Below are positions 29,363 through 38,852 of a stretch of DNA of 54,980 nucleotides, piece after piece. The position numbers were made by a program, and so were the translations under genes. The stretch lies in the NCBI GenBank assembly GCA_021792405.1, contig JAJYUU010000007.1, positions 1 through 54,980 of the forward strand, written 5' to 3'. The first letter of the stretch is position 1; every line of letters begins with the position of its first letter. The stretch comes from Actinomycetes bacterium. GTDB lineage: Bacteria; Actinomycetota; Actinomycetes; Streptosporangiales; Streptosporangiaceae. The notes under the pieces were generated by a model that ran no database searches, had not been told where the DNA came from, and was given only the letters and a program-made list of their open reading frames with translations.

Positions 29363-30655
29363 TCAGTGCGCGAACGTCACGGCGAGGAGGTAGACGTTCA
29401 TCGCGATGATCAGGCCGGCGGTCCCTGCTGCCGCGCACGTGGTAAGCCGGCGGTTGACCAGCGCTCCCATGATGTCGGCACGCCGCGTGAGGGCGACCAG
29501 CGGTACCAGTGCGAACGGGATGCCGAACGAGAGCACAACCTGGGAGAGCACCAGGGTGGCCGTCGGCGGCAGCCCGGCCGCCAGCACGATCAGGGCCGGC
29601 AGCATGGTGACGCCGCGGCGGGCGAACAGCGGCACGCGGCGCCCGATGAAGCCCTGCATCACGACCTGGCCGGCGTAGGTGCCCACGCTCGATGCGGACA
29701 GCCCGGAGGCGAGCAGGGCCACGGCGAACGCCAGCGCGGCGCCGCCGCCTACCAGCCGGACGAGGTCAGCGTGCGCCGCCTCCAGCGGCCCGCCTGCCAT
29801 CCCGGCTGCCGTGGTGGCAGCGCCGGGATGGCCGAACAGCGTCGCCGCAACGACCAGCATCGCCAGGTTGATAAGCCCGGCGGCGCCCAGCGCGACAACC
29901 ACGTCGAGTTGCTGGTAGCGCAGCAACTGGCGGCGCTCGCCCTCGTTGGCACAGGACACCCGGGCCTTGGTAAGTGCGGAGTGCAGGTAGACCACGTGCG
30001 GCATTACGGTTGCCCCGACGATGCCCACGGTCAGCAGCAGATAGGCCGGCCCGCCTAGCTGGGGGACCAGGCCGCTAGCGACGTCGGCCGCGCTCGGGTG
30101 TACTTCGGCGAGGTCGTAGGCGAAGCCGAGCAGGACGATGCCCAGCAGCGCTATGACTGCCAGCTCGAACCGCCGGTAACCGCGCTGATTCAGGGCGAGG
30201 ATGCCGAGCGCCACGACCGCCGTGATCAGGCCGGCGACCAGCAGCGGTGTGCCGAAGATCAGGTTCAGCCCGATGGCCGCGCCAACGAACTCGGCCATGT
30301 CGGTGGCCATGGCAACCAGTTCAGCCTGAACCCACAAGGCGCGGGACACCGGGCGCGGCAGCTGCTCGCGGCACAGTTCGGGCAGGTCCTTGCCGGTTGC
30401 GACGCCCACCTTGGCCGACAGGTACTGGACCAGCATGGCCATCAGGTTGGCGACGACGATCACCCAGCCGAGGCGGAAAGCGAACGTCGCCCCGGCCGAG
30501 AAGTTGGTGGCGAAGTTGCCGGGGTCGACATAAGCGATCGCGGCCACGAATGCGGGTCCGAGCAACGCGACCGACCCGCGCAGCCGCCCGCGCGAGCGCA
30601 GCAGGGCAAGCTCCGGCCCGGCCGGCTGCGCGGCTACCTCGGTCTGCGCAGTCAC
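29363..30655 (-). CDS. mntH: Nramp-family divalent metal transporter
   Basis: 430 residues, 11 membrane segments. The first helix contains DPGNFATNFSAGA, where Asp and Asn bind the metal. The sixth contains VMPHVVYLHSALTK, with the selectivity Met; the residue after H is Val where most MntH have Asn. It imports Mn(II) or Fe(II) with protons. Regulation by an MntR- or Fur-type protein cannot be judged, because the upstream region is taken up by a groEL remnant. The gene start overlaps that remnant's stop by four bases. Confidence 0.9.
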   Translation of the reverse strand: MTAQTEVAAQPAGPELALLRSRGRLRGSVALLGPAFVAAIAYVDPGNFATNFSAGATFAFRLGWVIVVANLMAMLVQYLSAKVGVATGKDLPELCREQLPRPVSRALWVQAELVAMATDMAEFVGAAIGLNLIFGTPLLVAGLITAVVALGILALNQRGYRRFELAVIALLGIVLLGFAYDLAEVHPSAADVASGLVPQLGGPAYLLLTVGIVGATVMPHVVYLHSALTKARVSCANEGERRQLLRYQQLDVVVALGAAGLINLAMLVVAATLFGHPGAATTAAGMAGGPLEAAHADLVRLVGGGAALAFAVALLASGLSASSVGTYAGQVVMQGFIGRRVPLFARRGVTMLPALIVLAAGLPPTATLVLSQVVLSFGIPFALVPLVALTRRADIMGALVNRRLTTCAAAGTAGLIIAMNVYLLAVTFAH

Positions 30656-31173
30656 CAGCCGTCAGCCGATCGACGGGCCGAGACCTGGCGCACGATCGCG
30701 ACTCCGATGGCGTAGTCACCGCAGACGTTCAGGCCATCAAGCGCCGGACCGGCCTGCAACAGCGCGGCGCCGCCGCCCGCCACGATCCCCTCGGCCATCG
30801 CTGCCCTGGTAGCCGACAGCGCGTCTTCGACCCGGTGCCGCAGTTCTCGCAGCTCCGCGTTGGTCGGCGCGCCCACCCGGATCACCGCGACCTTCCCGGA
30901 CAGAGCGCCGACTCGCTCGGTCAACTCGTCCTCGTCGATGCCGAAGGTGGCACGGTCCCGCTCCGCGCGCAACTGCGTGAGGCGGAACTGGACCGCGTCC
31001 GGCGAACCGTGACCGTCGATGATCGCGGTACGTTCTGCCGTCACCCGGACCTGCGCAGCCCGGCCCAGCTGATCTGCCCGCATGGCTTCCAGCGTGAAGC
31101 CGGACTGCCTGCTGTGCACCGCGCCGCCGGTGATCGCAGCGATGTCCTCGAGCTTGTGCAGCCGCCGGGCCTC
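30652..31173 (-). pseudogene. groEL remnant
   Basis: The minus strand encodes about 170 residues of a chaperonin 60: KLEDIAAITGGAVHS, LGRAAQVRVTAERTAIIDG, TERVGALSGKVAVIRVGAPT, LRELRHRVEDALSATRAAM and AEGIVAGGGAALLQAGPALD, in the order found in GroEL from the end of the apical domain into the intermediate domain. The N-terminal half, the hinge, the ATP-binding sequence DGTTT and the C-terminal equatorial domain are missing. The frame ends with a stop four bases inside mntH. It is a truncated copy that cannot form a chaperonin. Confidence 0.85.
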
Positions 31174-31473: not shown

Positions 31474-32037
31474 TTGAGTTGGGCTATCGCGCTCACGGTG
31501 TGTGGAGCCGTGGCGTGCGCTGCGGCTGCCCTTGCGTTCGTGGGCCTCGGGCAGGCCAGGCTTTCCGGCGCGGCAGCTCTTGCGCACGACGGCCTCGGTA
31601 CCGGGATGCGCGCACCCGCGTGGTCGCTGGCGGACTCGGCGGGGGTCGTGCACACTTCCCCGCCATTGCTGCCGCTGCAACTGGTGGTCTTTGCCGACCA
31701 TTCGCTGAAGTCGTTTCCCTCGGTTGCCGAGGGGCTGCGCGAACTGCTCGCCGACCAGGCCAGTCAGAGCGACCAGGACGCGGTGGAAATCGTGCTGCTG
31801 CTCAAGCATCCGAACCCGATGGCCGAGCCGGTGCTCGCCGAGCTCGGCCTCGGCGCGGTCAGCGTGCTGCAAGGATCCCCGGCCCTGTACGCCGACTACA
31901 ACGTGCGGGTCGGGCCGTTCCTGATCTTTGTCGACTCGGCGGGGCTGGTGCGGGCGTCGAGCCTGGTGAACTACTCGTGGCAGGTGGCCAAGCTGCGGCA
32001 GTTGGCCGGCTTGCCGGTGACGGCGGCCAAGCGGTGA
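31474..32037 (+). CDS. Membrane-anchored thioredoxin-fold protein without active cysteines
   Basis: 187 residues, TTG start after GGGGGGCGCCG. One N-terminal membrane segment (WAIALTVCGAVACAAAALAF) is followed by a thioredoxin-like domain: MRAPAWSLADSAG, LQLVVFADHSLKSFP and the cis-Pro loop VGPFLIFVDSAGLV. Residues 74-82 (ADHSLKSFP) take the place of the CxxC site in the MauD-like protein two genes later (DPTCPACEQ), so this copy cannot be a redox enzyme of the usual kind. It may bind or present a partner. It is the first gene of the operon; the next gene starts within its stop (GTGA). Confidence 0.75.
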   Translation: MSWAIALTVCGAVACAAAALAFVGLGQARLSGAAALAHDGLGTGMRAPAWSLADSAGVVHTSPPLLPLQLVVFADHSLKSFPSVAEGLRELLADQASQSDQDAVEIVLLLKHPNPMAEPVLAELGLGAVSVLQGSPALYADYNVRVGPFLIFVDSAGLVRASSLVNYSWQVAKLRQLAGLPVTAAKR

Positions 32038-32582
32038 CCACGCTCCTGCTCGCGGCCAAGGCGGCGGTCGCCGTCCTCCTGCTCGCCTCGGGCGGCGCGA
32101 AACTGGCTGACCTGGCCGGGTTCGCCGGCACGGTCCGGCTCTTCGCCCCGGCCCGGTCGTCGGGCTGGGTGGTGGCGGCGGTCCGGCATGCCGCTGTGAT
32201 GATCGCGGCTGCCGAGTTGATGGTCGGCGCGGTGAGCCTGTGCTGGCCCGCCCTTACCTGGGTCAACCTGGCGGTGCTAACGCTGACCTGCGGCTTCGTG
32301 ATTGCCGCCGGGCTTGGCTATGCGCGTCACCGGGGACGGCCGTGCCATTGCTTCGGCGCGCTGACCAAGCGGGGATTCGGGCTGAGCAGCCTGCTGCGCG
32401 CGGCGGTCGTGCTGGCCGCGGCAATCGCATCCTGCATGCCGGTGCGGCCAGCCCCGCAACTGCACTTCACGCTGGTGTTCCACCTGCTCCTGCTGGCTGG
32501 AGCGGTACTCATGGCAGCCGCGGCCGCAGCCGCGGCGAAGGCGCTGCTGACACAGCCGGATTCTGCTGGGACGGTTGCCTGA
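32034..32582 (+). CDS. MauE/DoxX-like membrane protein
   Basis: 182 residues from GTG 32034; the open frame extends back to 31479 antiphase to the previous gene. Four membrane segments. The loop after the third holds RGRPCHCFGAL with Cys104 and Cys106, the CxCFG motif of MauE-domain proteins. In methylamine utilisation MauE is needed, with MauD, for maturation of the disulfide-rich light chain, and MauE-like proteins are thought to pass electrons across the membrane to thioredoxin-like partners. Overlap with both neighbours (GTGA and TGATG) supports one complex. Confidence 0.8.
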   Translation: MTTLLLAAKAAVAVLLLASGGAKLADLAGFAGTVRLFAPARSSGWVVAAVRHAAVMIAAAELMVGAVSLCWPALTWVNLAVLTLTCGFVIAAGLGYARHRGRPCHCFGALTKRGFGLSSLLRAAVVLAAAIASCMPVRPAPQLHFTLVFHLLLLAGAVLMAAAAAAAAKALLTQPDSAGTVA

Positions 32583-33145
32583 TGCACATACCGGTCTACC
32601 TGGAGATCGCGCAGTGGGCGCTGCTGCTCGGGCTCGGTTCGCTGCTCGTCGTGCTATACCGGCAACTCGGACGGCTGCTTGGCGACAAGCAGGACACCGC
32701 CGACCTCGGTCCGCCGGTGGGCAGCAGGGCGACGCCCATCCGGTACACGGCGGTGCCGGATGGCAGCCACGAGCGGCTGGCACCCGGTGACGGTCAGCCG
32801 GCGCTGATCGCGTTCGTCGACCCCACCTGCCCCGCCTGTGAGCAGTTGGTCGCCAGCCTCGGCGAACTGCACGCAGCAGGGGAACTGGCCGGCTGCCGCG
32901 TGCTGCTGCTCATCTCTGATCCGCCCGGCTATCTCGGTATCTCGGCCGCGTTCCAGGCAACCAGCCTGCCGATCGGGCGGCCGGTCAGCGCGGCGGAAGT
33001 GACCGGATACCGCGCCAGCGGAACGCCGCTGCTGGTTGCCGTCGACGGCGCCGGCACCGTGCGCGCGGCCGGGGTTGCCAGCAAGCTGCCGGAGGTCCGG
33101 TCCTACGTGGCCGCTGTGGCCGCCGAGCGAGAGGTTGCCCGATGA
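32582..33145 (+). CDS. MauD-like membrane-anchored thioredoxin
   Basis: 187 residues. A single N-terminal anchor (ALLLGLGSLLVVLYRQLG) precedes a thioredoxin domain with the active site DPTCPACEQL (Cys83, Cys86) and the cis-Pro loop YRASGTPLLVAVDGAG. This matches MauD/TlpA-like proteins, which act outside the membrane in making or isomerising disulfides. Its client is probably the Cys-rich protein encoded next, whose start overlaps this gene's end by four bases. The upstream in-frame extension to 32240 lies over the MauE-like gene and is not real. Confidence 0.85.
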   Translation: MHIPVYLEIAQWALLLGLGSLLVVLYRQLGRLLGDKQDTADLGPPVGSRATPIRYTAVPDGSHERLAPGDGQPALIAFVDPTCPACEQLVASLGELHAAGELAGCRVLLLISDPPGYLGISAAFQATSLPIGRPVSAAEVTGYRASGTPLLVAVDGAGTVRAAGVASKLPEVRSYVAAVAAEREVAR

Positions 33146-33627
33146 ACTGGAAGAATGCCGGAGAGCGCCTCGACGCTCGGATTGGTGCGCTGGCCGAGCG
33201 CGCGGCCAGGCAGGTCAGCAGGCGCAACGCGCTGCGCGGCGTAGTGCTCGGCGGCACCGCCGGGCTCGCCGCGCTCGCCACCGGCCAGCGTCCCGCCCTG
33301 GCCGCGAGCTGCTACTGCGGGCCGACCCGCCGGTGCTCGAACTGTCCCGCGGTCGGCTGCCCGCACGGCTACGAGCTGTGCAAGAGCTCGTTCAACCCTG
33401 ATTGCTTCAATGCTCAGGGGTACCGGTGTGAGTGGCCGCAAGGCACCTGGATCGCCTGCATGGGCACCGGCAAGGGGTACGGCTACCGGATCTGCTACGA
33501 CTGCAAGGGCAGGTCGGGCTGCAGGGGCTGGTGTACCTGCCTGAGCGAGTGCATCTGCTGCCACTGCCAGACAGTCGAGGAGGTCCGGGCTGAGCAGGAC
33601 CGGATCCAGCTGCTCGAGGCGCAGTGA
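33142..33627 (+). CDS. Secreted 18-cysteine protein resembling methylamine dehydrogenase light chain
   Basis: 161 residues. A long Tat-like signal (QVSRRNALRGVVLGGTAGLA, then cleavage near ALA-AS at 52-56) resembles the MauA leader, which also ends its n-region in SRR. The mature ~106 residues hold 18 cysteines (57 to 142) and three tryptophans (98, 103, 130). Residues 101-133, GTWIACMGTGKGYGYRICYD and C-KGRSGCRGWCTC, align by eye with the MauA region around the first TTQ tryptophan (SWVASC ... YRDCCG ... GRCPC). The protein then ends, so the region with the second TTQ tryptophan is missing. Whether a quinone cofactor forms is therefore open. No heavy-chain gene is adjacent. Confidence 0.75.
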   Translation: MNWKNAGERLDARIGALAERAARQVSRRNALRGVVLGGTAGLAALATGQRPALAASCYCGPTRRCSNCPAVGCPHGYELCKSSFNPDCFNAQGYRCEWPQGTWIACMGTGKGYGYRICYDCKGRSGCRGWCTCLSECICCHCQTVEEVRAEQDRIQLLEAQ

Positions 33628-33776
33628 CCGGCGCCCGCAGGGCAGTGGCTGGCGTGGTCGCGGCCGGCGCCGGGCTGGCGGCAGCCTGGCTGGCCTCCGG
33701 TGCCATCGGCATCCTGTGCGCCATGGCGGTTTTGCTGGCGGCGGGCAATGGCTATGCGAAGGCTTACTCGCCTTGA
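33624..33776 (+). CDS. 50-residue hydrophobic protein in the mau-like operon
   Basis: GTG 33624 overlaps the previous stop (GTGA). The product has a basic N-terminus (TGARRAVAGVV) and two hydrophobic stretches (AGAGLAAAWLASGAIG and ILCAMAVLLAAGN). It ends at TGA 33774-33776, and the same reading frame continues as clear membrane-protein coding sequence for another 196 codons. It may therefore be the first 50 residues of a longer protein interrupted by a stop codon. Confidence 0.6.
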   Translation: MTGARRAVAGVVAAGAGLAAAWLASGAIGILCAMAVLLAAGNGYAKAYSP

Positions 33777-34364
33777 GGTGCCAATTCCGCGGCCTCGCTT
33801 GCCGCCCGTCTTCCGGTCGGGAGACTCGCCAGGACGTGTGCCGTCCTGCTCGCCTACCTCGTTCCCGGTGCCGCTGCCTGGGCGCTGCTCGGCCTGGCGC
33901 TCGGCGTTCTTCCGCTCGCGCAAGCGGCAGTCGTCGCGGTGGCCGTGTACGGGTGCGGCTACGGCTTGGCCGAAGTCACTGGCCGTCACTGGCCCGCTCC
34001 TGGCCGCCGCTGGCAGGTGCCGCAGGACCTGCTCATCGGCGCCGGCGGCACCCGTCGGCTGGTCATCTGGGGCGCCGTTCTCGGGCCGGGCTTCCTCACC
34101 AGGAACCCCTACCCCGGCTTCGGCATGCTCGTGCTGCTCGCCGCAGCGGCGGGCCGCTGGCCGGCGGCCATCATCGTCGCGGCGGCGATCGGCGCCGCCC
34201 ATGCTGCCGGCCGGGGCATCGCGCTGCTCCGCGACAGCAAGACCGGCCAGCACGACCCGTTCGCGCTGGTGCTGCGGTCGCTTCGGTGGCGAGCGCTGGA
34301 TGGCATGGCGCTGCTCGCGGTAGCCGGCGCCGCAATCGTGACGGCCGGGCACCAGCTCGGCTGA
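33777..34364 (+). pseudogene. Membrane-protein frame with no start codon of its own
   Basis: Frame continuing from the 50-residue ORF after one TGA. It encodes ARTCAVLLAYLVPGAAAWALL and LGVLPLAQAAVVAVAVYGCG (two membrane segments), then VPQDLLIGAGGTRRLVIWGA, FGMLVLLAAAAGRWPAAIIV and a C-terminal segment ending AGHQLG. The only usable start is GTG 33939, which would remove the first two segments. Either the gene is inactivated by the TGA, an indel near 33778-33790 hides the true start, or the TGA is read through. No family is recognised, but position suggests a role with the Cys-rich protein. Confidence 0.5.
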
Positions 34365-34389
34365 CTGGCCGCTAATGACGGGAGTACGC

Positions 34390-34980
34390 ATGCGCGGCAC
34401 GCTTGCCAGCAGGGCAGTTCGCGGTAGGGCAGTTCGGGTGGCCATGGCCGCGCTGGCGGTGGGCTCGGCGGGGTTGCTGGCCGCCTGGCCCGCAGGGACG
34501 GCAGTCGCGGCACCGGCGGCCGCGCAGTCGGCATCCGCGCAGTCGGCGGCACCGGCGTCCGCGCGGTCGGTGACCGCGCCGGAGCGCTTCCACCTGACCA
34601 CCGACAACGAGAACTCCAACCGGCAGCAGGTGCAGGCGACCGGCCCGTTCACCCAGGACGGCTACGCGGTGGCCGGAATCTTCAGCTCAAGCCACAGCGT
34701 CAGCCGGCTGGTGTTCCGCCGCGGCACGGTGCGCCTGGTGACCAGCATGACCAGCTTTCTGCTGCCGCCGCCGAATACGCGTACTTGTAAGTTCACCGAG
34801 CAGTTCAGCGGCTCGTACGTGATACGCGGCGGCTTCGGCAGGTACCCGCATGCCAGCGGTACCGGCCGCTACGTCAGCAGGATCTTCGGCCAGGTCTGGA
34901 AGCGGCACGATGGGATCTGCGGCTACGCGGTGGTGTCATTCTGGCAGTCGACGAGAACCGTGGGCTCACTGCACCTGTAG
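34390..34980 (+). CDS. Secreted protein with possible AOC-like barrel
   Basis: 196 residues from ATG 34390, which has GGGAG five bases upstream; an ATG at 34375 is in frame. A signal peptide (VRVAMAALAVGSAGLLAAWPAGTAVAAP) is followed by an Ala/Ser-rich linker and a ~130-residue beta-rich domain: RFHLTTDNENSN, GPFTQDGYAVAG, VFRRGTVRLVTSMTSF, YVIRGGFGRYPHASGTG. The order of short strands and the G-x-G-R-Y-x-x-A-x-G-TG element resembles allene-oxide-cyclase-like or dirigent-like barrels. Two cysteines (TCKF and GICG) may pair. Function unknown. It starts 25 bases after the mau-like operon and may belong to it. Confidence 0.65.
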   Translation: MRGTLASRAVRGRAVRVAMAALAVGSAGLLAAWPAGTAVAAPAAAQSASAQSAAPASARSVTAPERFHLTTDNENSNRQQVQATGPFTQDGYAVAGIFSSSHSVSRLVFRRGTVRLVTSMTSFLLPPPNTRTCKFTEQFSGSYVIRGGFGRYPHASGTGRYVSRIFGQVWKRHDGICGYAVVSFWQSTRTVGSLHL

Positions 34981-36108: not shown

Positions 36109-36972
36109 CTAGATCTGGCCTTCCAGAGCGCGCACCGGCGCCGTGGTGCAGACGTTCGCCGGTAGGTTGCCGGTGATCTTGCAGATCGCCGCGGTGATCA
36201 GGTTGGCCGAGCCGACCGCGCCCTGCGCTACCGGCGAAGCGGGGTCATGCAGGTTGGCCGCGATCTGACTCCAGGTCAGGCCGTGCAGTATCTGCGGGTC
36301 ATAGGTGGTGCCCGCGATGAACCGGTTGCCGATGTCGATGAACGGGTAGCCGTTGCTCGGATCGTATTTGTTCCAGATTGCCTGCTGTGCCGGGGTCGGT
36401 TTCTGCAGCGGGTTGTGATTGATGTCCTGGTTCTCCACTGGCGTGAACACCAGGTACTTGCTGGTGTACGTCGCCCCGTAGAAGGTGAGCGTCGCGGTGT
36501 TGGGATAGACGTCTGTTGCCGAGGAGTGGATGCCCCGCAGCGGCGAGAAGGTGCCGAACCGGCTCAGCGCGACGGCCATCGCCCACCGCTCTGCCGCGCA
36601 GTACGGGCACCACTCAGCGCCGATGTAGAGCATCTCCGGCTTACCGCCGGAGACCAGCGCGGTGCCGGTGGCGGGCCGGATCGCGCCTGGCAGCGCTGCG
36701 CCGGCGCCGACCTTGGCCAGGGTGCTGGCGGGCACGGTGAGGTCAGCCTGGACGCCGGCGGGCAATGGGCCATTGGTCGCGGTGGCCTGCTTGGGCTTGT
36801 TACTGCTCGCGACAGCCGCGACGATGATGACGACGATCACCACCAGCAGCACGGCGCCGACGCCGCTGACGGCGAGCGTGCGGCGGCGCTTCTCGGCCTT
36901 GCGCTGCGCTGCCTGCTGCTCGGCGATCCGCGCCCGCGCGGACTGGCTCTTGTTCCGGTCAGCCTTGCCCAT
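36109..36972 (-). CDS. DUF929 membrane-anchored thioredoxin-like protein (copy 1)
   Basis: 287 residues. A highly basic cytoplasmic tail (residues 1-32), one membrane segment (33-55, [18 protein letters not shown]), and an outer domain with [23 protein letters not shown] (CxxC at Cys122 and Cys125), [16 protein letters not shown], and [16 protein letters not shown]929 proteins are thioredoxin-like. The C-terminal region has a conserved cysteine pair ([17 protein letters not shown]). With VKOR encoded 108 bases upstream on the same strand, it probably works as a disulfide-forming partner outside the membrane. Confidence 0.85.
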
Positions 36973-37080
36973 GGTCAGGATCTGGCTCCTCGGACTCGGC
37001 GCGATCGCTACGGACAGTCACTCAATGATGACATGTTGTCTTCGAGGCCCGCGGGACCGGTTCGCTCTCCCGGCGGTCCG

Positions 37081-37914
37081 CTAACTTGCGCGGCTCTCGG
37101 CCGCAGCCGGCTTCTCCCAGCTGAACGCGGTGTAGAAGACCAGCAGCGCGAAGAGCAGGAAAGTGGCCACATGCACGCTGGTGCACCACAGGCAAATGGC
37201 GTGGATCAGGTCGACCTCGGCGTAGATCAGGTAGAGGACGAAGCCCATGCCGGCGATGACGGACCCGAGCCGCAGCCAGCGGACTGCGGGTGAGCTGAGC
37301 CGCCAGCCCCATGGCGAGTTGACCGCAACCATGAAGAGGTAGAACGCAAGTCCCAGCACGGCGACCGGGAAGATCCCGAACACCATCGACTCCGGACTGG
37401 TGGTGACCTCCGCGCAGTTGATCAGGCCCTTGTCCGAGCAGGCCAGGGTGATGCTCGTGTCATAGTGCGCGAGCGTCAGGTAGATCGATGCGCCGAGGCC
37501 GTACAGCGACAGGATGAACGTGGCGATGGGCACGGCGCCCAGCGAGCGGAACTGGGACCAGGCCGCCCGCAGCAGCCTGTCCGCCGGACCGTCGGCCGGC
37601 TGGGCCGCCGCCGGGAGACCCGTGGCCTTACCGCCGGCCGCTGCCTTTCCGCCGACTGCGGCACTGCGGCCGGCCGGGCCGGATTTCCCGCTATCTGACC
37701 CAGCCGGAGTCCAGGCAGCGCTGGCCGGTAGTGCGCCGGCCGGCTTGCCGGTACCGGCGGCCTTCGGCGTGCTGCCCTGGCGCTTGCCGGACGCCTGGCC
37801 CTTGCCCGCGGAAGCCGACCGCGCGGTCGGCGAGCCCGGCCGGACCGGCGGTTGCCTGGTGCTGGACTGCCGGGTGCTGCCCGAGCGGCGCCCGGCAGGC
37901 TTCTGGCCGGCCAT
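37081..37914 (-). CDS. VKOR-family disulfide-generating membrane oxidase
   Basis: 277 residues. Residues 1-115 are an unusual disordered Pro/Ala/Gly/Lys/Arg-rich tail. Four or five membrane segments follow. Between segments 1 and 2 the outer loop has two cysteines (ITLACSDKGLINCAEVTTSP) and the fourth carries the active CxxC, ICLWCTSVH (Cys241, Cys244). VKOR passes electrons from thioredoxin-like partners to quinone, replacing DsbB in actinobacteria. The ATG overlaps the stop of the upstream DUF929 gene by one base, so coupled translation is likely. The long tail is not usual and may bind DNA, RNA or acidic lipids nonspecifically. Confidence 0.88.
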   Translation of the reverse strand: MAGQKPAGRRSGSTRQSSTRQPPVRPGSPTARSASAGKGQASGKRQGSTPKAAGTGKPAGALPASAAWTPAGSDSGKSGPAGRSAAVGGKAAAGGKATGLPAAAQPADGPADRLLRAAWSQFRSLGAVPIATFILSLYGLGASIYLTLAHYDTSITLACSDKGLINCAEVTTSPESMVFGIFPVAVLGLAFYLFMVAVNSPWGWRLSSPAVRWLRLGSVIAGMGFVLYLIYAEVDLIHAICLWCTSVHVATFLLFALLVFYTAFSWEKPAAAESRAS

Positions 37915-38852
37915 CAGAGTGATCCCGCCCCGGCCGTGGCCGCCGCTGAGCTGCAGACCGACGCGGGCGCGTTCTTGGTGATCTTGCAGATAGCCGCGGT
38001 GATCGAGTTCGCGGCTCCGTCGATGTCCTGAGCGATGGGGCTGGCCGGGTTCCTCAGGTCAGAAGCAATTTGCGTCCAGGTCAGGCCGAAGTGCCCGGGG
38101 TTAACGGATGGCGTGGTGCCGAGTGCGGACGGCAGGTACTGGCTCCCGATGATCAGGTACTGGTTGCCGATGTCGACGAATGGGAAGCTGCCGGAGTCAG
38201 TTGACGGTACGTACGGCGGGCCGTCGTAGGTGGACATCAGCGCGCTCTCCGCGGCCGTCGGCGTCTGCAGGGTCGCGTACCCGCTCCCGGATCGCTGCTC
38301 GCTGTACATCTCGACTGGCTTGAACACCAGGTAATTGCTGGTGTAGCTGGACTTGTAGAACGACAGCGTCGCGGTGTTGGTGAAGATGTCGGCGTTCGAC
38401 GAGCGGATCAGGTGCAGCCCGGAGAACCGCCCGAACCGGCTCAGCGCGATCACCATGGCCCAGCGCTCGGCCGCGCAGTAGGGGCAGTACTCCGCGCCCA
38501 TGTAGACGACCTCGGGCTTGCCGCCGGAGAGCAGGACCTTCTGGCCCTTGGTCGCGATCAGCGGGTTCACGGTGCCTTTGCCGACCGCATTCAGCGTGCT
38601 GGCCGGGACGCTGGTGAGTTCCCTGGTAACCGACGCCGTGGTGGCTGAACTGGCCGCAGAGCCGGCCGCGGCGGGCGGCGTGTTGCCGCCGCTCTTGACG
38701 ATGATCAGGACGATCACGACCACCAGCACGCCGAGCACGCTCCCGCCGGCCAGCATCATGCGGCGGCGAGTTTCCGCGCGCCGCGCGGCAGCTTGCTGCG
38801 CCGCGATTCTCTCCCGAGCGTTCATCCGCCGGATCCGCTCAGCCTTGCCCAT
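37914..38852 (-). CDS. DUF929 membrane-anchored thioredoxin-like protein (copy 2)
   Basis: 312 residues, first gene of the minus-strand set. The plan is that of copy 1: basic tail ([19 protein letters not shown]), membrane segment 34-53, and outer domain with [19 protein letters not shown] (Cys123, Cys126), [16 protein letters not shown] and [15 protein letters not shown]. The C-terminal cysteine pair ([17 protein letters not shown]) is kept. GAGGCAGG lies just before the ATG. Two similar proteins around one VKOR suggest division of labour, for example oxidase partner and isomerase; this is inference. Confidence 0.85.

Follow-up and report, generated by a model that had tools for sequence, protein, structure and literature searches.

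Gene content and order of the operon

The window analysed here (54,980 nucleotides, positions 1 to 54,980 of contig JAJYUU010000007.1) comes from a 5.39 Mb, 98.4% complete genome of the actinobacterial family Streptosporangiaceae and contains an operon (31474-34364, forward strand) whose genes resemble those of methylamine dehydrogenase (mau) clusters (Table 1). A first-pass annotation of the sequence had described overlapping frames A to F, and we recovered their positions and overlaps (4, 1, 4, and 4 nt between successive frames from A to E). The last two frames, E and F, had been taken for small membrane proteins. We found instead a single frame interrupted by a TGA, and it is very likely that the first-pass annotation overlooked a MauF with selenocysteine (Sec) in these final frames.

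Table 1. Features of the operon and of the gene that follows it, with the observations behind each assignment.
Feature	Position	Strand	Evidence
Gene A, putative membrane-anchored thioredoxin-fold MauD paralogue	31474-32037	+	TTG start; hhalign with MauD 9e-11, with gene C 2.4e-10
Gene B, MauE, CHCFG-containing membrane protein	32034-32582	+	PF07291 53.6 bits
Gene C, MauD-like thioredoxin, PTCPAC	32582-33145	+	hhalign 2.3e-18; TIGR02661 3.5e-8
Gene D, predicted Tat-type (twin-arginine translocation) exported protein, 18 Cys in mature part, mauA position	33142-33627	+	Homologues in 12 family genomes including its own
Putative mauF(Sec), 246-residue membrane protein across the TGA	33624-34364	+	Conserved TGA, MauF homology, tRNA-Sec co-occurrence
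Frame E, start of putative mauF(Sec) up to the TGA	33624-33776	+	Open reading frame
TGA, predicted selenocysteine 51, AYSP-U-GANSA	33774-33776	+	12/12 alignment; on invariant MauF Cys
Candidate bacterial SECIS (selenocysteine insertion sequence) stem-loop, GTCTTCC-GGTC-GGGAGAC	33808-33825	+	Loop begins 39 nt past TGA
Possible associated gene, secreted 201-residue protein	34375-34980	+	Weakly conserved; several loci have a homologue by F or D, ~24-87% identity

The gene order of the operon is shared with related genomes. A search for D across 150 family genomes returned 13 matches, 12 of them sound, including that of the genome itself; the thirteenth (G134, E 9.6e-4) was dropped, as none of the other operon genes lay nearby. 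The order A-B-C-D-E/F is kept in 12 family loci that were re-read in detail, and because it is repeated there while the outer genes vary, it recurs beyond chance. There was one exception among the 12 (L031), in which the contig begins within B and no F lies next to D. In that genome, the MauF(Sec) gene was located on a contig separate from the D operon (G019:C378, locus L091). Among 11 family loci, one comes from an isolate (Allonocardiopsis opalescens DSM 45601, locus L036) and ten from metagenome-assembled genomes. Genome G060, in which the contig of that isolate is also present, has a tRNA-Sec scoring 80.7 bits.

The comparison with mau genes made in the first-pass annotation held for genes A, B, and C and for the gene order, which is MauE-MauD-D here and mauE-mauD-mauA in Paracoccus. 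Gene B scored well above the Pfam cut-off for MauE (PF07291, cut-off 27 bits), and its profile matched three proteobacterial MauE proteins at 2.9e-7. Gene C, compared by hhalign with three MauD-type proteins (Table 1), also matched the MauD model TIGR02661, with a score below the cut-off (33.1 bits against 188.6); we regard it as MauD-like, being homologous by profile. Gene A had been called Cys-free, which is correct for its thioredoxin domain, but the membrane segment at its N terminus contains two Cys. In place of the CPxC stretch, this protein has FADHSLKSFP. Gene A matched no Pfam or NCBIfam model. By its profile similarity to MauD and to gene C it is a second MauD paralogue, and it is probably not a thiol catalyst.

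A conserved TGA within the last gene

Frame E ends with NGYAKAYSP-TGA, and frame F goes on as GANSAASLAARLPVGR. The TGA was found at the identical place in 12 out of 12 sequences, and strongly conserved residues flank it to either side in the alignment. A profile of the joined protein gave 14 matches in the 150 family genomes, each with exactly one TGA (14 out of 14). Two of these matches were divergent (G050 and G096), and inspection by eye showed that genes of MauE-like, MauD-like, and Cys-rich twin-arginine proteins lie immediately before MauF in these genomes too. Third codon positions were the most variable both before and after the TGA, with mismatch per codon position of 0.34/0.31/0.49 over the 40 columns before it and 0.38/0.32/0.50 after it.

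If the TGA were a true stop, the operon would end in two distinct membrane products, a peptide of 50 residues and a protein no longer than 195. TGA is the most frequent stop in the window (26 out of 43 called-gene stops), and candidate start codons are present past it, as such an arrangement would need. However, the first in-frame ATG, GTG, or TTG past the TGA was scattered between codons 2 and 55 among the 12 sequences, leaving no conserved start for F. Considered with the fixed position of the TGA in the 12 sequences and 14 matches, its exchange with TGC at the MauF Cys, and the finding of a tRNA-Sec match in none of seven Cys-only genomes (both described below), termination at this codon is scarcely credible.

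Similarity of the joined protein to MauF

Comparison of the joined protein with mau clusters points to MauF. When the family was aligned by hhalign with seven MauF proteins and the TGA site was set to X (E 5.5e-5, probability 66%, 194 columns), the X aligned with the Cys that is invariant in proteobacterial MauF; the Paracoccus protein (P0004, annotated mau cluster NC_008688) has the motif STWSPCGYSS. The protein of G458, a TGA-bearing intermediate, matched Indioceanicola MauF by blastp at 2e-11 with the site scored as C. Invariant positions in a joint alignment of 19 rows were the Sec/Cys position, the Gly that follows it, G66, V132, G150, G154, and T159. The similarity covers most of the length, and the SPCG, QVP, and G-LG...T positions are shared with MauF of the Paracoccus, Indioceanicola, and Methylobacterium mau clusters. 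MauF itself is unmatched by Pfam and NCBIfam models, so no curated cut-off was applicable.

As in proteobacterial mau clusters, MauF is linked here to MauE and MauD. The present gene differs from its proteobacterial counterparts in the apparent replacement of the invariant Cys by Sec and in its position, following D, whereas proteobacterial mauF heads the cluster. No mauB, mauG, mauM, or mauN adjoins mauF in the operon, unlike in those clusters. In the predicted structure of MauF(Sec) (AlphaFold; predicted local distance difference test, pLDDT, 82.5; predicted template modelling score, pTM, 0.80), Sec51 starts a short helix (50-60), a placement consistent with a reactive site. A CcdA/DsbD-like fold, suspected from an SPC motif, was unsupported by a Foldseek comparison of this model with the PDB (best E 0.37).

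Predicted selenocysteine and cysteine at the MauF site across the phylum

MauF genes with an in-frame TGA were common beyond the family. The family-only MauF profile gave eight matches over the phylum, two of which were real on reading (G249:C81 and G458), and a third match (G423:C53) was recovered by a wider, joint profile. Across 396 phylum genomes, this joint profile found 69 places in 66 genomes, or about one in six of those sampled, mostly with TGA. Fifty-three places had one TGA, one had two, and 15 had none (eight spanning the site and seven stopping short of it), while TAA or TAG occurred in none. With a site-masked profile, 40 further loci (one per genome, chosen by score together with the eight full-length stop-free matches and a spread of weaker ones) had TGA in 32 cases, TGC in eight, and no other codon. 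G249 has both MauF copies, TGA and TGC (contigs C81 and C37). In the best tree of 64 MauF sequences (49 Sec and 15 Cys), there were four changes between Sec and Cys, and three to four in bootstraps.

The genome itself has genes for Sec insertion, with selA (437 bits), selB (266.7 bits), and a tRNA-Sec (73.9 bits, anticodon TCA by ARAGORN) within ~4 kb on one contig (C277). In the first 16 carriers of the TGA gene, tRNA-Sec scored at least 64 bits in 14, and among the 14 carriers from the family selA was above the cut-off in 11 and below it in G137 and G145. We compared tRNA-Sec occurrence (E <=1e-9) across 62 further carriers and found it in 44 out of 50 genomes with TGA MauF, a class to which 18 of the 50 were assigned by stop count alone, versus none of the seven Cys-only genomes, a difference for which the Fisher value of 6.5e-6 is indicative because the genomes are related. 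Five carriers whose only match falls short of the site (G338, G380, G416, G436, and G512, two of which have tRNA-Sec) were excluded from both groups, and the tRNA comparison also omitted G168 (E 0.004). A conserved in-frame UGA, homologues with Cys at the site, and tRNA-Sec together with selA and selB, three of the features expected of a UGA-decoded selenoprotein, are present, and we consider it highly likely from these sequence comparisons that the UGA is decoded, as Sec, in a MauF homologue.

A candidate SECIS element after the UGA

The loop of the E. coli SECIS is GGUC. The candidate in the window has a 7 bp stem and the loop GGTC. Within 20-50 nt past the codon, the longest stem averaged 6.90 bp in 49 Sec genes versus 4.93 bp in 15 Cys genes, and stems of at least 6 bp were found in 43 out of 49 and 3 out of 15, respectively (Mann-Whitney 6.6e-6 on stem length). 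GGTC was present in 33 of the 49 Sec genes versus 4 of the 15 Cys genes. Stem sequences were specific to clades, including TCTCCCC/GGGGAGG, CCCCCGTG/CACGGGGG, and CGTGGCC/GGCCACG. In 12 family sequences that keep LPVGR (a set with two near-identical pairs, and in which the L032 codon, AGG, was read from the sequence), Arg within the stem is encoded by AGA or AGG, which make up 12.7% of Arg codons overall. The stem of the window sequence was no longer than synonymous recodings give (p 0.52). We interpret these patterns as supportive of a SECIS element, not as proof of one.

Several observations weigh against Sec as the residue at this site. The best tRNA-Sec scores of G145 and G116 (51.0 and 49.4 bits) are values that other tRNAs also reach; the selA match of G145 is a mere fragment, and G116 was not among the genomes matching selA. 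Under strict search filters, tRNA-Sec was absent from six of the 50 TGA genomes (G166, G298, G306, G349, G394, and G405, with completeness of 98, 87, 92, 94, 84, and 73%, respectively), three of which, G166, G306, and G349 (92-98% complete), belong to one family. Strongly supported branches of the tree, taken alone, force no more than one Sec/Cys change. The excess of stem length over synonymous recodings was weak across the 49 related Sec genes (Fisher p 0.01), and minimum folding energy over the 54 nt past the codon was much the same in Sec and Cys genes (mean z of -0.64 versus -0.66 in TGC genes; Mann-Whitney 0.37). Additionally, the Sec trait is widespread, with selA above the cut-off in 92 of the 150 family genomes. 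Because the trait is common, the presence of Sec machinery alone proves little, and the weight rests on the contrast with the Cys genomes.

The mixed stem-loop evidence and the six TGA genomes without a tRNA-Sec match would also fit readthrough of the UGA by a near-cognate or suppressor tRNA that inserts some other amino acid. However, Cys was the sole substitute at the site in the 40 loci, TGA tracked tRNA-Sec across the further carriers, and the genome itself has selA, selB, and tRNA-Sec, all of which make readthrough with an amino acid other than Sec very improbable.

The cysteine-rich protein D

Protein D has 18 Cys, every one of them past residue 54, behind a Tat-type leader. The first-pass annotation had called it MauA-like. 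Its leader and position in the operon agree with this description, but PF02975 and the NCBIfam MauA models had no match for D, and mature D compared with mature MauA by hhalign was not significant (E 0.006 over 24 columns). In a search of solved structures with a profile of 12 D homologues, MauA (3c75) ranked first, at a value that was not significant (E 0.12), and an hhalign match between D and MauA (7.7e-6) was carried mainly by the leader. D is similar to MauA (PF02975, TIGR02659) in having a Tat-type leader, a Cys-rich composition, and the mauE-mauD-mauA order. It differs in its 18 Cys, in its lack of a family match, in the lack of a heavy chain found with it, and in the tryptophan tryptophylquinone (TTQ) positions, as there is no Trp in D past the last WCTC stretch and the second TTQ Trp has no counterpart. 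We conclude that D occupies the place of MauA, while common descent of the mature domain is not demonstrable from these comparisons. A phylum search with the D profile gave eight weak matches besides the genome itself, none of which was taken as real, and a structure of D predicted by AlphaFold (12 sequences) was unusable (pLDDT 35).

W103 is the sole Trp invariant among the 12 D homologues. The HMMER alignment, which was not significant (E 0.12), puts it on the Trp of the SWVAS stretch of MauA, which we take to be TTQ Trp57. D was rejected as a TTQ protein, since W103 falls on the MauA Trp only in this alignment and hhalign of the mature part does not recover it.

The search for a dehydrogenase supported the claim that the heavy chain is missing. 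PF06433 (MauB) had no match in 15 of the 16 carriers, the 98%-complete genome analysed here included. The sole positive carrier was G458, in which the PF06433 match adjoins MauF and the gene set runs MauD, a MauA homologue, TGA MauF, and then MauB. The MauA homologue of G458 matched at 7.6e-14 by hhalign, in an alignment that spans both Trp, presumably the TTQ pair. The MauD gene of G458 is broken into two frames (L093:2335-3263), by a frameshift or an assembly error. As G458 has MauB and none was found in the other carriers, Sec MauF may or may not be accompanied by a heavy chain.

An ordinary methylamine dehydrogenase locus with mauB and mauG elsewhere in the genome would have the mauE-mauD order observed, and in G458 a TGA MauF does lie next to MauB and a MauA homologue. 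Linkage of mauB in related genomes, which had been proposed as the mark of such a locus, was nevertheless found in that one distant genome and in none of the other 15 carriers. PF02975 had no match in the genome itself, a weak test in which control genomes were also silent and the G458 homologue was missed, and the lack of Trp in D past the last WCTC stretch points in the same direction. No MauB-type propeller was found near the 40 further MauF loci with a four-sequence profile, and no MauG was listed by phmmer among open reading frames up to 5 kb from 40 related MauF loci, with no genome-wide search made. We regard an ordinary locus as most improbable, and since no dehydrogenase subunit was found, D would be a product in its own right.

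Another explanation is that the module installs more than disulfides, with D giving rise to a protein-derived cofactor (W103) or to a large RiPP-like (ribosomally synthesized and post-translationally modified peptide) product. The invariance of W103 and its position in the HMMER alignment would fit such a precursor, and Streptomyces MauE/MauD genes with precursors of at least eight Cys have been filed as candidate RiPP clusters in the decRiPPter analysis (PMC7794033). However, no MauG match was listed near the 40 related loci, and mature-part hhalign does not reproduce the W103 alignment, so we consider a precursor role unlikely. The decRiPPter clusters are like the present operon in containing MauE, in one family also MauD, and a Cys-rich product, and in that other mau orthologues are not reported for them. 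They differ in that, within the portion of PMC7794033 available to us, their products are taken as RiPP precursors and MauF is not mentioned.

Neighbours of MauF in other genomes

Genes near MauF in other genomes were often of mau type or encoded Cys-rich proteins. A mau match was present within 5 kb of MauF in 27 of the 40 further loci (phmmer, E 9e-4 or better), with MauD-type matches in 26, MauE in three, and MauA in nine; the remaining 13 loci had none, with single-sequence queries that are insensitive. A Tat-type protein with ~10 Cys (YHICGH...GGGWSRCC...RINGDA type) lies directly before MauF in 17 of the 40 loci. Among 11 loci for which genes were listed with a simple gene caller, seven contain a protein of ~430-730 residues that has 18-32 Cys and, in several cases, a twin-arginine start. 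The loci with these larger proteins beside Sec or Cys MauF are L132, L138, L147, L149, L154, L156, and L159.

A proposed maturation module

The mauF gene is needed around methylamine dehydrogenase, and we know of no chemistry assigned to its product. PMC7794033, citing other work, mentions that MauE may act in forming the disulfides of the MauA subunit. We propose that the operon is a Mau-type maturation module consisting of two MauD-family thioredoxins, MauE, the exported 18-Cys protein D, and MauF(Sec). A thiol/selenol relay at the membrane, made up of Sec51 (MauF), CxC (MauE), and CPAC (MauD), would make or sort the disulfides of D (up to nine), and the CxxC-less MauD paralogue encoded by gene A could act as a holdase or adaptor. 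We put the probability of this relay, including the role of gene A, at about 0.55. Two points count against it: its basis is homology to mau genes, and the MauF model resembled no solved structure in the Foldseek comparison. We infer the relay itself as well as its direction and the function of gene A.

A broader interpretation, which we consider somewhat favoured, is that diverse Cys-rich proteins exported by Tat are matured by a general, selenium-dependent module of MauF, MauE, and MauD, with the methylamine dehydrogenase cluster as one specialised relative and MauF as an unlisted selenoprotein family. Like known selenoprotein families, MauF appears to have a UGA-decoded Sec with Cys homologues. 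Table 1 of PMC13188914 (2026), which describes itself as the most comprehensive inventory, lists 119 prokaryotic selenoprotein families and subfamilies, and neither MauF nor the SPUG motif appears anywhere in that table. In NCBIfam (June 2026), we found no meaningful match for the predicted Sec proteins (best E 0.86) and none for MauF, and literature text searches returned no link between MauF and selenium. As far as we have checked, a Mau maturation module in which MauF contains selenocysteine is new, as is the selenoprotein family.

The natural exchange of Cys and Sec singles out one residue of MauF as the probable site of its chemistry, so that the role of the protein can be tested. A standard gene caller would cut such MauF proteins at the TGA, as 54 of the 69 places hold one or two TGA. 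The module would also connect actinobacterial export of Cys-rich proteins with selenium and, if the proposal is true, would provide a membrane selenoenzyme in protein oxidation for bacteria that are probably aerobic.

Other genes near the operon

The secreted 201-residue protein encoded just past mauF had no meaningful family match, and its membership in the operon is uncertain. On the opposite strand near the operon, a VKOR gene lies between genes for two DUF929 proteins (36109-38852), a gene set of disulfide-forming type. Also on that strand, a lone Cpn60 chaperonin fragment (30652-31119; PF00118 positions 300-386 of 490) lies by an Nramp gene and is possibly a remnant.

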